Below, in pieces: positions 2,011-52,308 of a stretch of 52,308 nucleotides of DNA; position 1 is the stretch's first letter; every line of letters starts with the position of its first letter. Below the pieces are notes generated by a model. The model was not told the origin of the DNA. It ran no database searches and saw only the letters and a program-made list of their open reading frames with translations. Source of the stretch: a virus; IMG/VR virus record IMGVR_UViG_3300048690_000044, positions 1 through 52,308 of that record; one strand, given 5' to 3'. Both the position numbers and the translations under genes were made by a program.

Positions 2011-3219
2011 ATGGCAATCTCAAAAGGTACATCAAAAGTTGTAGCTTACAAAAAAGAAAGCGCATGGGGTACTCTAGCTGGTAATACATCTGGTAAGCTA
2101 CTTCGCCGTGTAACTGCTAGTTTTAACCTAGTAAAAGAAGCTTATGAATCCGGTGAGATTCGTACTGATCGTCAAATCGCTGATTACCGTCACGGTGTAC
2201 GTTCTGCTGAAGGTAGCTTGAATGGTGAACTATCACCTGCATCATATGCTGATTTCATGGGTTCTATTGTAGGTCGTGATTTTACTACTGCTCCTGTATC
2301 TGGTACAGCTTCTGTTACAATCGCTGCTACTGGTGCTCTTTATACAGTAACTCGTGCTACTGGTGATTTCTTAACCGATGGTTTTAAAGTTGGTCAAGTT
2401 GTTCGTTTAACTGCCGCTGGTCTAGATGCTGCTAACGTAGCTAAGAACTTGCTAATCGCTGCTGCTACCGCTACTGTTCTAACTGTTAAAGTTGTAAACG
2501 GTTCGGCATTAGTCGCAGAAGGTCCAATCGCTTCTGTAACAGTAACTGCTGTTGGTAAAACAACTTTGGTTCCTACTTCTGCTCACACTGATCAATCATA
2601 TACTGTAGAAGAATTTTATAGTGATATCGCTCAGTCAGAAGTTTACACTGGTATGAAATTAAACAGTATGGCTGTGCAGTTACCTGCTACTGGTCTAACA
2701 ACTGTTGACTTTGGTTTCGCTGGTAAAGACCTAACACAAACTGGCACAACTCAATACTTCACTTCACCTACTGCACAGAACTCCAACGGTATTTTCGCTG
2801 CTGTAAACGGTGTCATGCTTGTTGACGGTCTACCTGTTGCTCTAGTAACTTCTGCTGACTTCTCAGTCGAACGTGCTACTGAAAATGCAACTGCTGTAGG
2901 CTCTAACTCTGTAGCTGAGATTTTCACTGGTCGTATTCGTGTTACTGGTAACATGAGCGTTTACTTCCAAGATGCTGCCTTCCGTACTTACTTCGATGCC
3001 GAGACTCCTGTTTCAGTCGTATTGACTCTAACTACAGATAGTGCTGCTAACTCTGAGTTTGTAACATTCACAATGCCTAAAGTTAAACTAGGTAGCTTCA
3101 CAAAAGATGACGGTGAATTAGGTATCATCGCTTCAGCAAGTTTCCAAGCTTTGTTCAACGATGTAACAACTGCTGGTCTACCTGCTACTACACTTCAAAT
3201 CCAAGATTCTGCAGCTTAA
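2011..3219 (+). CDS. Major tail (tube) protein
   Basis: 402 residues. The N-terminus (KVVAYKKESAWGTLAG, then ESGEIRTDRQIADYRHG) is characteristic of the phage tail tube protein family 2 in which a small beta fold assembles hexameric rings. Residues about 90-190 form an Ala/Thr/Val-rich insert (repeated TAVTA-type text) that reads like an Ig-like decoration domain. Codon choice is biased to GCT/GGT/ACT/GTA codons, as expected of the most highly expressed structural gene. A strong rho-independent terminator follows within 30 bp, so it ends the head-tail joining transcript. Confidence 0.9.
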   Translation: MAISKGTSKVVAYKKESAWGTLAGNTSGKLLRRVTASFNLVKEAYESGEIRTDRQIADYRHGVRSAEGSLNGELSPASYADFMGSIVGRDFTTAPVSGTASVTIAATGALYTVTRATGDFLTDGFKVGQVVRLTAAGLDAANVAKNLLIAAATATVLTVKVVNGSALVAEGPIASVTVTAVGKTTLVPTSAHTDQSYTVEEFYSDIAQSEVYTGMKLNSMAVQLPATGLTTVDFGFAGKDLTQTGTTQYFTSPTAQNSNGIFAAVNGVMLVDGLPVALVTSADFSVERATENATAVGSNSVAEIFTGRIRVTGNMSVYFQDAAFRTYFDAETPVSVVLTLTTDSAANSEFVTFTMPKVKLGSFTKDDGELGIIASASFQALFNDVTTAGLPATTLQIQDSAA

Positions 3220-3245
3220 TAACCTGTTATTATAACTTGATGATT

Positions 3246-3276
3246 ACCCCTTGGTCAAAAGCCGAGGGGTTTTTCT
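3246..3276 (+). terminator. Rho-independent terminator after tail tube gene
   Basis: ACCCCTTGG pairs with CCGAGGGGT (one G-U pair) around a 7-nt loop and is followed by TTTTTC. It separates the tail tube transcript from the chaperone/tape measure operon. Confidence 0.9.
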
Positions 3277-3290
3277 TTTGTTTACACCTC

Positions 3291-25990: not shown

Positions 25991-26065
25991 TGGTGGGTCA
26001 GACTGGACTTGAACCAGCACTATCTCGATTATGAGTCGAGGGCTTCACCTTTAAGCTACTGACCC
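25991..26065 (-). tRNA. tRNA-Ile2 (CAT anticodon; reads ATA after lysidine modification)
   Basis: 75 nt including encoded CCA. Acceptor GGGTCAG/CTGACCC with discriminator A, anticodon arm CTCGA-CTCATAA-TCGAG, T arm with GGTTCAAGTCC. Anticodon CAT alone could mean Met, but the ACTCATAATCG core and the T arm GCTGGTTCAAGTCCAG follow bacterial tRNA-Ile2 rather than elongator Met. ATA codons are favoured in this AT-rich genome, so the gene would ease their translation. Confidence 0.85.
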
Positions 26066-27890: not shown

Positions 27891-27965
27891 TGGTACGGCG
27901 TAGTGGAATCGAACCACTATTGAATGCTTAGAAGGCACTTGCACTATCCGTTGTACTAACGCCGT
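27891..27965 (-). tRNA. tRNA-Arg (TCT)
   Basis: 75 nt with encoded CCA. Acceptor ACGGCGT/ACGCCGT, anticodon arm AGTGC-CTTCTAA-GCATT (one G-U pair) giving anticodon TCT, T arm TAGTGGTTCGATTCCACTA. It reads AGA/AGG, codons that are rare in many gammaproteobacterial hosts but frequent in this AT-rich phage. Confidence 0.95.
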
Positions 27966-42645: not shown

Positions 42646-42859
42646 ACACGACATAAACGATTGGGAAATGATCACTACACCTTTGAAGTTAGAACAACTA
42701 AAAGAAGGTGAAATGTTTAGTTTCTTAGGTGATAATAAGATGTACAAACTTTATTGCGTCCTTACTGATATTGCACTCGCCGGAACAGAAGAAATTTGGG
42801 ATAGTTTGGTGTTTCCTAGAACTATGAATGTATTTAAATGGGTTAAAAATAATGCTTGA
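42635..42859 (+). CDS. Small hypothetical protein
   Basis: 74 residues overlapping the end of thyX. Beta-type text (LKEGEMFSFLGDNKMYKLYCV). The promoter of the downstream endonuclease cassette starts inside its last codons. No family recognised. Confidence 0.6.
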   Translation: MLNEHDINDWEMITTPLKLEQLKEGEMFSFLGDNKMYKLYCVLTDIALAGTEEIWDSLVFPRTMNVFKWVKNNA

Positions 42860-42884
42860 TTTTATTCTAAATATCTGCTATAAT
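42856..42884 (+). promoter_or_regulatory. Promoter of endonuclease cassette A
   Basis: TTGATT, 17 bp, TATAAT with extended -10 TGC. The 16 bp from TGCTATAATTATAAAG onward are identical in cassette B at 51942. Confidence 0.82.
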
Positions 42885-42957
42885 TATAAAGCAATAGTTG
42901 AAAATTAATTACTTTCAACGATAAGAGCAGCTTCCCGTGGCTGCTTTTTGCTTTATA
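42885..42957 (+). ncRNA. Three-stem RNA, copy A, before HNH gene
   Basis: TATAAAGCAA (42885-42894) pairs perfectly with TTGCTTTATA (42948-42957) and encloses two hairpins: GTTGAAA/TTTCAAC (42897-42903 with 42913-42919) and AGCAGC/GCTGCT (42926-42931 with 42940-42945, loop TTCCCGTG), the latter followed by TTTTTG as in a terminator. Copy B at 51950-52024 keeps the structure with compensatory changes in the first hairpin. It probably controls the downstream endonuclease, or is a small RNA in its own right. Confidence 0.75.
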
Positions 42958-42986
42958 TTTTACGGGTGTTTGACGGGAAATTATTT

Positions 42987-43562
42987 ATGTATAAAAAATG
43001 CAGTACATGTAAAGATGAAAAACTAATATGTGAGTTTGGTAAGAATAAATCAACCAAGGATGGTTATCATAATCAATGTAAGATGTGTAGAAAAGATTAC
43101 ACTTCTAAAAACATAGAGAATATATTAAAGAAAAGTAAAGAACACTATCATCTTAATAGAGAAAAATGTTTAAATAAATCTAACAGTTATAATAAACTTA
43201 ATAAAGTAAATACCGCCAAAAGAACTAAAAAGTATAGAGAAAATAACAAAAATAAGTTAAATCTTCTACGCAGAGAATATACCATAACTAACAGAAGTAA
43301 ACTTTATGCCTTGAATGCCAAGAGAAGAGCTTCTAAACTGAAGGCAACACCAAAATGGTTAACAATTGAAGAGTTGCGACAAATTGAAGAACTCTATGAA
43401 ATATCACAAGCTTTCAAACTTTACACTGGTCAAGATTACCATGTAGATCACATTATACCGTTGCAAGGTGAAAATGTGTGTGGTTTACATGTCCCGTGGA
43501 ATCTACAAGTTCTTGAAGCTTCGGAAAACTTGAGTAAATCTAACAAACTTTTAGAACAATAA
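42987..43562 (+). CDS. HNH homing endonuclease with N-terminal zinc finger
   Basis: 191 residues from ATG 42987 (upstream TTG codons lie in the RNA element). Zinc finger Cys5, Cys8, Cys31, Cys34 (CSTCKDEK, QCKMC), a long basic linker (KEHYHLNREKCLNKSNSYNK), then the HNH core DYHVDHIIPLQGENVCGLHV with WNLQVLEASENLSKSNKL. The C-terminus is a paralogue of the partial gene at 1-273, and the zinc finger matches those at 16883-17344 and 52047. Closed by its own terminator, so it is a self-contained transcription cassette. Confidence 0.92.
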   Translation: MYKKCSTCKDEKLICEFGKNKSTKDGYHNQCKMCRKDYTSKNIENILKKSKEHYHLNREKCLNKSNSYNKLNKVNTAKRTKKYRENNKNKLNLLRREYTITNRSKLYALNAKRRASKLKATPKWLTIEELRQIEELYEISQAFKLYTGQDYHVDHIIPLQGENVCGLHVPWNLQVLEASENLSKSNKLLEQ

Positions 43563-43568
43563 GCACAA

Positions 43569-43600
43569 ACCCTAAGTTAATCTTAGGGTGTTTTTTTTTT
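43569..43600 (+). terminator. Terminator of HNH cassette
   Basis: ACCCTAAG (43569-43576) pairs perfectly with CTTAGGGT (43582-43589), 5-nt loop, followed by G and ten T. Confidence 0.93.
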
Positions 43601-43611
43601 GCTAACTTGTA

Positions 43612-43638
43612 TTGCAATAAGAATGTTTGTGGTATAAT
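43612..43638 (+). promoter_or_regulatory. Candidate promoter of HU-like gene
   Basis: TATAAT (43633-43638) with extended -10 TGG; the best -35 TTGCAA is only 15 bp away, so the extended -10 probably matters most. Confidence 0.6.
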
Positions 43639-43668
43639 TATAAACTTAACTTAAACAGAAAGGAATTT

Positions 43669-43998
43669 ATGGGTGATAAACAAAAACGTAAATCAAAAAG
43701 CTACAGACAACTGATTCAAATGGTAGCTAAGTCTTCAGGATATCATTTATATGAAGTAGAAGATATACTGCAGCATTTAGTAGGTAATATTCAAGTAGTA
43801 CTTGCTGCTGATATGCCTGTAAAGATCAGTGGTCTTGGTACAATGCGTGTAAAAAAGATGAAAATTAAAGGCATTCCCGGTAAACATGCAGAGAATACGT
43901 GCTACACTGCGTTCAGGTTATCAGTTACTTCTGATACCGGATTGCAAAATCACCTAAAGGAACATCATGTCGAATCAACAGACCCCTTCAACTACTAA
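43669..43998 (+). CDS. HU/IHF-like DNA-binding protein
   Basis: 109 residues from ATG 43669 with AAAGGA (14 earlier in-frame codons include the promoter region and are rejected). Helical start (YRQLIQMVAKSSGYHLYEVEDILQHLVGNI) and VKISGLGTMRVKK follow the HU fold (two helices, then the VxIxGLGxF strand); the arm region KIKGIPGKHAENTCY replaces the usual RNPQTG. Likely bends phage DNA; a distant, single-copy family member. Confidence 0.78.
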   Translation: MGDKQKRKSKSYRQLIQMVAKSSGYHLYEVEDILQHLVGNIQVVLAADMPVKISGLGTMRVKKMKIKGIPGKHAENTCYTAFRLSVTSDTGLQNHLKEHHVESTDPFNY

Positions 43999-51920: not shown

Positions 51921-51949
51921 TTGCATTATGCAAAGATAAATGCTATAAT
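51921..51949 (+). promoter_or_regulatory. Promoter of endonuclease cassette B
   Basis: TTGCAT, 17 bp, TATAAT with extended -10 TGC; same spacing and -10 region as cassette A. Confidence 0.82.
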
Positions 51950-52024
51950 TATAAAGCAATAGTTAAAGAAGTCATGAGCTTTAACGACAAGAGCAGCTTT
52001 CCGTGGCTGCTTTTTGCTTTTATA
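51950..52024 (+). ncRNA. Three-stem RNA, copy B, before GIY-YIG gene
   Basis: AAAGCAA (51953-51959) pairs with TTGCTTT (52014-52020) and encloses GTTAAAG/CTTTAAC (51962-51968 with 51979-51985) and AGCAGC/GCTGCT (51992-51997 with 52006-52011, loop TTTCCGTG), followed by TTTTTG. Versus copy A, both strands of the first hairpin changed together while the loop diverged. Confidence 0.75.
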
Positions 52025-52046
52025 ACACGGATATTTATCGGAGAAT

Positions 52047-52308
52047 ATGATGCAAATTAAGAAGTGCAGTTGCTGCAGAATAGAAAAACCTTTTATAGAG
52101 TTTCATAAGAATAAATCAAATAAGTTTGGTTTGGCTAATTATTGTATTGAATGCAAAAAGTTAAGCAGAAAAAGCAAAACCAAGGTTAAAACAAAAAATC
52201 GTAAATTTGAAGAAACATATGATAAATGGATTGTATATGAATTTTATGATGACAATAACATTTGTATATACGTTGGACAATCTAAAGTATTTGCTAAAAG
52301 ATTTATTC
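52047..52308 (+). CDS. GIY-YIG homing endonuclease with N-terminal zinc finger (partial)
   Basis: 87 residues before the window ends, from ATGATG at 52047/52050 (CGGAG before). Zinc finger Cys7, Cys10, Cys33, Cys36 (CSCCRIEK, CIEC), basic linker, then WIVYEFYDDNNICIYVGQS and AKRF, the start of a GIY-YIG nuclease fold (IVY..IYVG, catalytic Arg of KRF). Its leader and zinc finger match the HNH cassette at 42856-43562 although the nuclease domain is different. Confidence 0.85.
   Translation, partial: MMQIKKCSCCRIEKPFIEFHKNKSNKFGLANYCIECKKLSRKSKTKVKTKNRKFEETYDKWIVYEFYDDNNICIYVGQSKVFAKRFI

Follow-up and report, generated by a model that had tools for sequence, protein, structure and literature searches.

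What does a folded RNA do that, behind a promoter of its own, precedes two different endonuclease genes of one virus? The DNA analysed here (the window) comprises positions 1-52,308 of the virus record IMGVR_UViG_3300048690_000044 (IMG/VR; 52,308 nt). The two cassettes, A and B, of a preliminary description were found at the positions given there, and the observation proved to be larger than first described.

Two promoter-RNA-nuclease cassettes

Both cassettes follow the same order: a promoter, a closing helix (P1) where transcription is predicted to start, a P2 hairpin, a P3 hairpin and a nuclease ORF. Promoter B and the two elements downstream of ORF A were read from the sequence.

42856-42884, + strand: promoter A, sigma-70-type, TTGATT, 17 nt, TG-n-TATAAT (-10 at 42879-42884), from a promoter scan
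42888-42954, + strand: structured RNA A (fold z -4.7 against shuffles; training row of model R1, 125.9 bits; covariation on alignment A6)
42888-42894 with 42948-42954, + strand: P1 of A, AAAGCAA/TTGCTTT
42897-42903 with 42913-42919, + strand: P2 of A, GTTGAAA/TTTCAAC
42920-42925, + strand: P2-P3 linker of A, GATAAG
42926-42931 with 42940-42945, + strand: P3 of A, AGCAGC/GCTGCT, loop TTCCCGTG
42932-42938, + strand: P3 loop of A, UUCCCGU, presumed antisense segment from its complementarity to two downstream repeats
42962-42966, + strand: repeat 1 of A, ACGGG, complementary to the P3 loop at 5 of 7
42973-42979, + strand: repeat 2 of A, ACGGGAA, within the ribosome-binding site, 7/7 bp with the P3 loop
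42987-43562, + strand: ORF A, zinc-finger plus HNH-type endonuclease, 191 aa, ATG at 42987 (PHROG 1035 'endonuclease VII', 3e-18)
43569-43600, + strand: terminator-like ACCCTAAG..CTTAGGGT plus T-run, 3' of ORF A
43610-43638, + strand: promoter-like stretch ending in TATAAT, ahead of an HU-like gene (start 43669)
51921-51949, + strand: promoter B, TTGCAT, 17 nt, TATAAT
51953-52020, + strand: structured RNA B (sequence, fold with z -2.7 against shuffles, R1)
51953-51959 with 52014-52020, + strand: P1 of B
51962-51968 with 51979-51985, + strand: P2 of B, GTTAAAG/CTTTAAC
51992-51997 with 52006-52011, + strand: P3 of B, loop TTTCCGTG
51998-52004, + strand: P3 loop of B, UUUCCGU
52027-52031, + strand: repeat 1 of B, ACGGA
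52039-52044, + strand: repeat 2 of B, CGGAGA, within the ribosome-binding site
52050-52308, + strand: ORF B, zinc-finger plus GIY-YIG endonuclease, ending at the window edge (alternative ATG 52047)

Promoter A matches the consensus at 10 of 12 positions, carries a TG ahead of the -10 and lies approximately at the left edge of an inserted element, since similarity among copies starts at the -35 (by eye); the TGA stop of a short ORF 5' of the cassette sits within this -35. A promoter is found at the equivalent place in the 12 near copies described below, and in the distant relative L061 it reads TTGATA-17-TAAAAT. When the fold is extended through the leader past the ORF start, z weakens to -1.6 (A) and -0.75 (B), and the lowest-energy structure of the longer B fold is without P1. 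Two occurrences of the P3 core pattern lie in the window, against none in 100 shuffles with up to three mismatches allowed, and a search of the window with the covariance model R3 returns copies A and B only. At the Rfam gathering score, the window yields tRNA only. Its tRNA genes, Met(CAT) and Arg(TCT), lie at 25991-26065 and 27891-27965.

A covarying RNA class in many phages

With A and B counted, pattern scans recovered 12 near copies, of which 11 are distinct. Four of the seven P2 pairs show compensatory change among them, P3 and most of P1 are constant, and the P2 covariation noted earlier between A and B is genuine. The second hairpin had been described as nearly invariant, which holds for the 12 near copies but not for distant relatives, in which the P3 stem varies.

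A covariance model built from the 12 near copies, with distant relatives excluded (R1), identifies two such relatives directly upstream of endonuclease ORFs, L061 (E 1.6e-4 in 706,101 bases) and L188 (E 4.1e-5 within its record), in which most stem letters have changed and the loop match is retained. Both share the P2 loop AGUAAUUAA with the near copy L001, and patterns based on P2 then yielded many phages. Model R2 matches 24 of 27 pattern loci at E < 0.001, including L195 and L197, which hold the training copies L061 and L188, and fails on the remaining three; R3 at E up to 0.01 matches 31 of 57 new loci and fails on 26. A named isolate, Sporosarcina phage Lietuvens (MT104122), carries a member at 3188-3279 (R3 E 4e-7).

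The final alignment (A6) contains 72 matches in 64 distinct rows, takes in the 29 training rows of R3 and is fitted to the model; among its rows are a reverse-strand one (L264 plus strand) and the weak L286. Its helices are paired in 95.0% of cells, compared with 60.0% when shuffled and 46-55% when slid. The covariation score is 0.862 against 0.230 shuffled (reached by none of 500 shuffles) and at most 0.179 slid, while double changes occur in 19 of 20 pairs, hardly above the shuffled mean of 16.9, so that the weight rests on the other measures. The RNA is real and present in many phages. Building a covariance model, as the preliminary description proposed, has thus uncovered further copies upstream of endonuclease ORFs, and the model searches together with the A6 covariation give strong support to its central idea, an RNA under selection that covaries and accompanies homing-type endonucleases.

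It is important to point out that the search patterns fixed ATAG/GATAR and the P2 loop, so the conservation of these letters in A6 is partly imposed, while the P1 and P3 stems and the repeats lay outside the patterns. The conserved junction letters are AUAG and GAYAAG, the latter absent from every search pattern. Second copies on the same contigs (L290:9486, L313:2464, L334:7228, L338:635 and L327:3580) keep AUAG and mostly GAYAAG, with very different P2 hairpins that lack the AGUAAUUAA loop; its second form is kept in L217:6509 and L325:4871. The row at L264:1279-1375 (- strand) is without AUAG and the P2-loop letters, yet retains all three helices together with a loop match and is accompanied by a DUF4379 ORF. 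Some distant loci (e.g. L217:1200, L325:48 and L316:739) have no TATAAT upstream of P1; an AT-rich ...TTTTA or TATTA, perhaps a phage-specific promoter, adjoins P1 instead.

Among the best 80 of 594 HNH relatives, L061 is the sole significant match of R1, and R3 lists L061 followed by L082 (E 0.051) and L129 (0.21), with L119, L060, L110 and L133 weakest (E 1.1-2.4). L133 was rejected as a member, as it resembles an ordinary terminator; L082, initially regarded as a chance match, may belong to the class. R1 found no member in 32 bacterial loci, the single match in that run (L140) being viral. Phage sequences searched by blastn with cassette A and three distant leaders yielded weak, short matches only, and R2 returned nothing below E 0.04 in 12 phage records obtained by blastn of distant leaders. 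In 18 named phage records, R3 matched Lietuvens alone below 0.02; because 10 of the 18 had been chosen for encoding a relative of the L205 or the L188 nuclease, similar nucleases often occur without the leader RNA. At the gathering score, Rfam models detect tRNAs plus one int-alpA, and nothing else, in the window and 17 related loci, and at E up to 10 all scores on A and L203 are far under the cutoff. Among the publications listed by searches of open-licence PMC text, none dealt with this RNA.

One leader, several nuclease families

By eye, the ORF that follows a near copy encodes a finger-HNH protein in nine of 12 cases and a finger-GIY-YIG protein in two; the L047 locus holds the finger only. 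For the class as a whole, 44 ORFs were listed from the 72 matches and 40 were run against Pfam, of which 25 (6, 7, 6 and 6 in batches of 10) passed the cutoff for HNH_2, HNH_3, GIY-YIG, HNH_repeat or DUF4379. DUF4379 is a zinc finger and not a nuclease per se; the DUF4379 proteins of L203 and L313 match PHROG homing endonucleases. Among the other 15 ORFs, L187, L184 and L283 have PHROG endonuclease VII matches, L325:4981, L290:9600 and L334:7350 show zinc ribbons only, below the Pfam cutoff, and L338:729 has a weak DEAD helicase match in Pfam; Pfam matches are absent from L217:6619, L186, L182, L218, L295, L302, L303 (where the ORF start is probably misplaced) and L315.

In a separate Pfam run, L205, L203 and L217:1341 (DUF4379), L200 (GIY-YIG) and L207 (DUF559) scored over the cutoff, and L220, L061 and window A under it; Pfam on ORF A gave zero matches. 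The ORF B fragment scores below the cutoff for PF01541 (E 0.011), and its full-length relative in L005 above it (2.2e-7). A single RNA module is common to HNH, GIY-YIG and treble-clef/DUF4379 proteins. In the window itself, the ORFs at 42987-43562 (HNH) and 52050-52308 (GIY-YIG) have in common the leader RNA as well as a CxxC..CxxC finger at the N-terminus, as though a unit of promoter, RNA and finger had been transferred to catalytic domains unrelated to each other.

The P3 loop matches its own leader

Downstream of P3 lie repeats to which its loop is complementary, and one of them falls on the ribosome-binding site. In A, UUCCCGU is the exact complement of the ACGGGAA at the ribosome-binding site, and its CCCGU part complements the ACGGG further upstream; a C to U change in the loop of B relative to A is accompanied by a G to A change in repeat 2. 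The leader of about 25 nt described before the ATG is present, but it is not filler, as it holds these two repeats. In alignment A3, the paired fraction of cells is 98.2% for repeat 1 and 94.8% for repeat 2, figures that alone are weak because most of those pairs never vary.

A permutation test is more informative. In 46 non-redundant leaders, the loop taken from the alignment was scored against its own and the others' downstream sequence, leaving out the L264 reverse-strand row, L286, rows that lacked a start codon or had little sequence downstream, and rows more than 80% alike. Own pairings score 14.1 versus 10.1 permuted (sd 0.33) in the ribosome-binding-site zone (last 25 nt) and 13.2 versus 8.9 (sd 0.32) in the upstream zone, values reached in 0 of 20,000 permutations each; since the two zones overlap by 6 nt, some rows count a single match twice. 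A loop scores best, or ties for best, with its own leader in only 24 (ribosome-binding-site zone) and 19 (upstream zone) of 46 cases, as expected given that the targets resemble Shine-Dalgarno sequences and some leaders are related. The automated loop was too short in several rows (e.g. L332, L309, L277 and L327:3580; also L297). A hand-curated test of 14 leaders, also when cut to 11, likewise gave 0 of 20,000 permutations, with loops picked after the sequences had been seen; for single leaders, the shuffle p was at most 0.05 in eight of 14 (ribosome-binding-site zone) and seven of 14 (upstream zone).

Individual leaders illustrate the range. Clear matches are the L207 loop CCUCUGUA to UACAGAG and UACAGAGG, the L315 loop CUUCGCA to two copies of UGCGAAG, and the L198 loop UUCCUUUC to GAAAGGGA and GAAAGGAA. 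Weak cases by eye are L061, with 4 bp at repeat 2, and L188, with 4 bp at repeat 1. L309 and L297 look free of a Shine-Dalgarno sequence and still show, by eye, two loop-complementary repeats (UAAACGC or UAACUGC), one of which adjoins the ATG; the L309 promoter is TAnnTTTG-like, the Bacteroidetes type. The copy at L218:1096-1189 (- strand) shows no clear match between loop and repeats in the hand-curated test, and no nuclease-like ORF was found after it; it is possibly a relic left after nuclease loss.

Relation to int-alpA, C4 and T4-type control

The preliminary description knew of no named RNA family of this form. That view has to be revised, as Rfam contains a sibling, int-alpA (RF02996), and a family of the same layout, C4 (RF01695), even though the window copies escape both models. 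The int-alpA RNA sits between the int and alpA genes and is entered in Rfam as an sRNA. Like the window class, it consists of P1, CUAG, P2, CGAAAAG and P3, followed by a downstream stretch matching the P3 loop, and the general layout P1-UAG-P2-GAnAAG-P3 is present in the window class. The two differ in P2, which has 4 bp in the int-alpA consensus and 7 bp with a 9-10 nt loop in the window class, and in location, as the window copies precede endonuclease ORFs.

Over the Rfam cutoff, int-alpA occurs in four of 22 records (G005, G010, G015 and G038), never at a window-type copy, and 18 of 22 have no match, including the window; sub-threshold matches occur in seven of 14 control genomes. The diverged leader L060 passes the int-alpA cutoff (39.0 versus 35.8 bits), and its HNH ORF is 52% identical to that of A. 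Because Rfam's C4 and int-alpA models miss the window copies but this diverged leader passes int-alpA, we call the window type a sibling class of int-alpA. R3, trained without int-alpA, recovers two of six int-alpA loci at E < 0.01 (L347, 0.0013, and L348, 0.0051, in 22 kb), finds L349 weakly (0.084) and misses L350, L351 and L352. By eye, the int-alpA sites L347, L349 and L351 lie just ahead of GIY-YIG-like or HNH-like ORFs and have loop-complementary repeats, a placement that suggests a function for the motif.

The C4 family (c4 of phages P1 and P7, and CI of P4) resembles the window class in having a closing helix, two hairpins and a second loop complementary to a downstream ribosome-binding site. 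As read from the P4 and P1 sequences, UAUCCUGUGAAG faces UUCACAGGA ahead of the next ATG in P4, and UUUCACUAACG faces GUUAGUGA in P1. RF01695 (cutoff 45) gives 68.8 for P1 and 74.9 for P4 and exceeds the cutoff in none of 22 records, the window included, with a sub-threshold 13.1 bits in G005 away from the element. R3 finds nothing in P1 and P4, and the kinship to C4 accordingly rests on layout. The c4 RNA is processed by RNase P, and both P1 c4 and P4 CI are reported to act in trans. C4 targets are antirepressor and immunity genes, whereas those of the window class are nucleases. In passages of PMC12197685, c4 is described as pairing around the ribosome-binding site and blocking ant translation; in passages of PMC4825925, CI pairs with seqA and seqC, leading to termination, with one target upstream and the other downstream of CI. 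Both targets are downstream in the window class, unlike P4 CI.

A further parallel comes from the T4-type homing endonucleases I-TevI, SegB and MobE, for which parts of PMC2988022 describe RNA structure over the ribosome-binding site that limits translation, the site lying within a structure that late transcripts avoid. In both cases, translation of a phage homing endonuclease is limited by RNA structure at the ribosome-binding site (as predicted for the window class). In the window class, by contrast, the complementary loop belongs to a distinct folded RNA that has a promoter to itself, and one class serves several nuclease families.

A proposed antisense leader and its alternatives

Structure, covariation and complementarity of the loop to its own leader, including the ribosome-binding site, are directly supported across the leaders of different nucleases. 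Together they make it probable that the cassette encodes an antisense leader RNA of the c4/CI type whose loop pairing represses translation of the nuclease, in cis or in trans, and repression is the most likely outcome. The cassette's promoter would start transcription at the base of P1, and P1, P2 and P3 would form a three-way junction presenting the P3 loop. This loop could pair with repeat 1 and repeat 2, the latter covering the ribosome-binding site and thereby keeping nuclease translation low. The structured part of about 70 nt may regulate the transcript that carries it (cis) or, if released by cleavage or termination downstream of P1, other transcripts (trans); trans action, processing and a use in curbing nuclease production after the element has become established are envisaged by us. 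The earlier suggestion of a small or guide-like RNA fits in the antisense sense of c4/CI as far as the small RNA is concerned, and nothing was found for a guide-like role.

A cis-acting bistable switch or riboswitch, in which the junction (AUAG, GAYAAG and the P2 loop) senses a signal and the P3 loop pairs either with repeat 1, leaving the ribosome-binding site free, or with repeat 2, masking it, appears unlikely. The two competing repeats are of similar strength in many leaders, which could mean on/off control, and the junction letters are conserved, GAYAAG outside all search patterns. The five second copies without the AGUAAUUAA loop argue that this loop is not essential, even though L217:6509 and L325:4871 keep the second form, and P2-loop conservation was partly set by the search patterns. 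Nor are c4/CI RNAs known to require a ligand.

The preliminary description suggested, among other options, an attenuator or terminator that keeps the nuclease silent. Silencing fits, but through loop pairing to the ribosome-binding site, as no terminator is conserved (L061, L200 and L203). That P3 and a T-run stop transcription, with regulated read-through, is decidedly improbable for the class. A terminator scan did identify a candidate at 42923-42948 in A (two sites in all, one per strand, against a shuffle mean of 0.0), and TTTTGCTTT follows P3 in the 12 near copies, most of it inside two of the three patterns that found them. The U-tract after the hairpin, present in A and, by eye, in the near copies, is absent from L061 (UUUCUACUUUU), L200 (CCCUUCUUGUG) and L203 (ACGUUUCCCUA), which retain P1, P2, P3 and the loop match; its place is taken by the P1 3' strand. 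The terminator is a local feature of the near copies. A purely DNA-level element, with inverted repeats serving mobility or protein binding, would suit the left edge at the promoter and the absence of element A from phage DC31, but it leaves unexplained the G-U pairs among the compensatory changes, the loop-repeat matches and the promoter before P1 in many members, and is strongly disfavoured by the A6 covariation and the 46-leader loop test.

If the antisense leader reading is correct, control of the c4/CI type reaches beyond phage immunity to selfish nucleases, and int-alpA, an Rfam motif listed simply as sRNA, gains a possible function that can be tested. With a loop-to-ribosome-binding-site layout like that of the P1 and P4 immunity RNAs, selfish DNA-cutting genes seem to carry their own silencer, which could explain why strong-promoter cassettes spare their phage. 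From every loop/repeat pair, the exact compensatory mutants can be predicted, as can cross-talk specific to each type. A bolder extension, possible although we lean against it, is that the widespread phage RNA class (window type, int-alpA and the layout-equivalent c4/CI) constitutes a trans-acting, sequence-specific immunity for free-standing homing endonucleases of unrelated folds; residents would shut down further copies of their own type, whether newly arriving or in excess, drive would be limited to naive genomes, and loop/repeat pairs would diverge to escape each other.

Insertion of element A

The window phage is related to Limnohabitans phage DC31 (81.4% identity across 59% of a 13.8-kb query). 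DC31 is without element A: it aligns to the window up to ~42788 and resumes at ~43670, and R1 finds zero copies over the whole DC31 record. Downstream flanks were examined for 11 copies; a terminator-like hairpin ACCCTnnn..nnnAGGGT is present in seven (L002, L003, L004, L006, L007, L022 and L032), a different hairpin in L001 and L005 and none in L061, and the L047 flank is incomplete. In the window, the TATAAT stretch at 43610-43669 may restore expression of the HU-like gene, which in DC31 overlaps its upstream neighbour.
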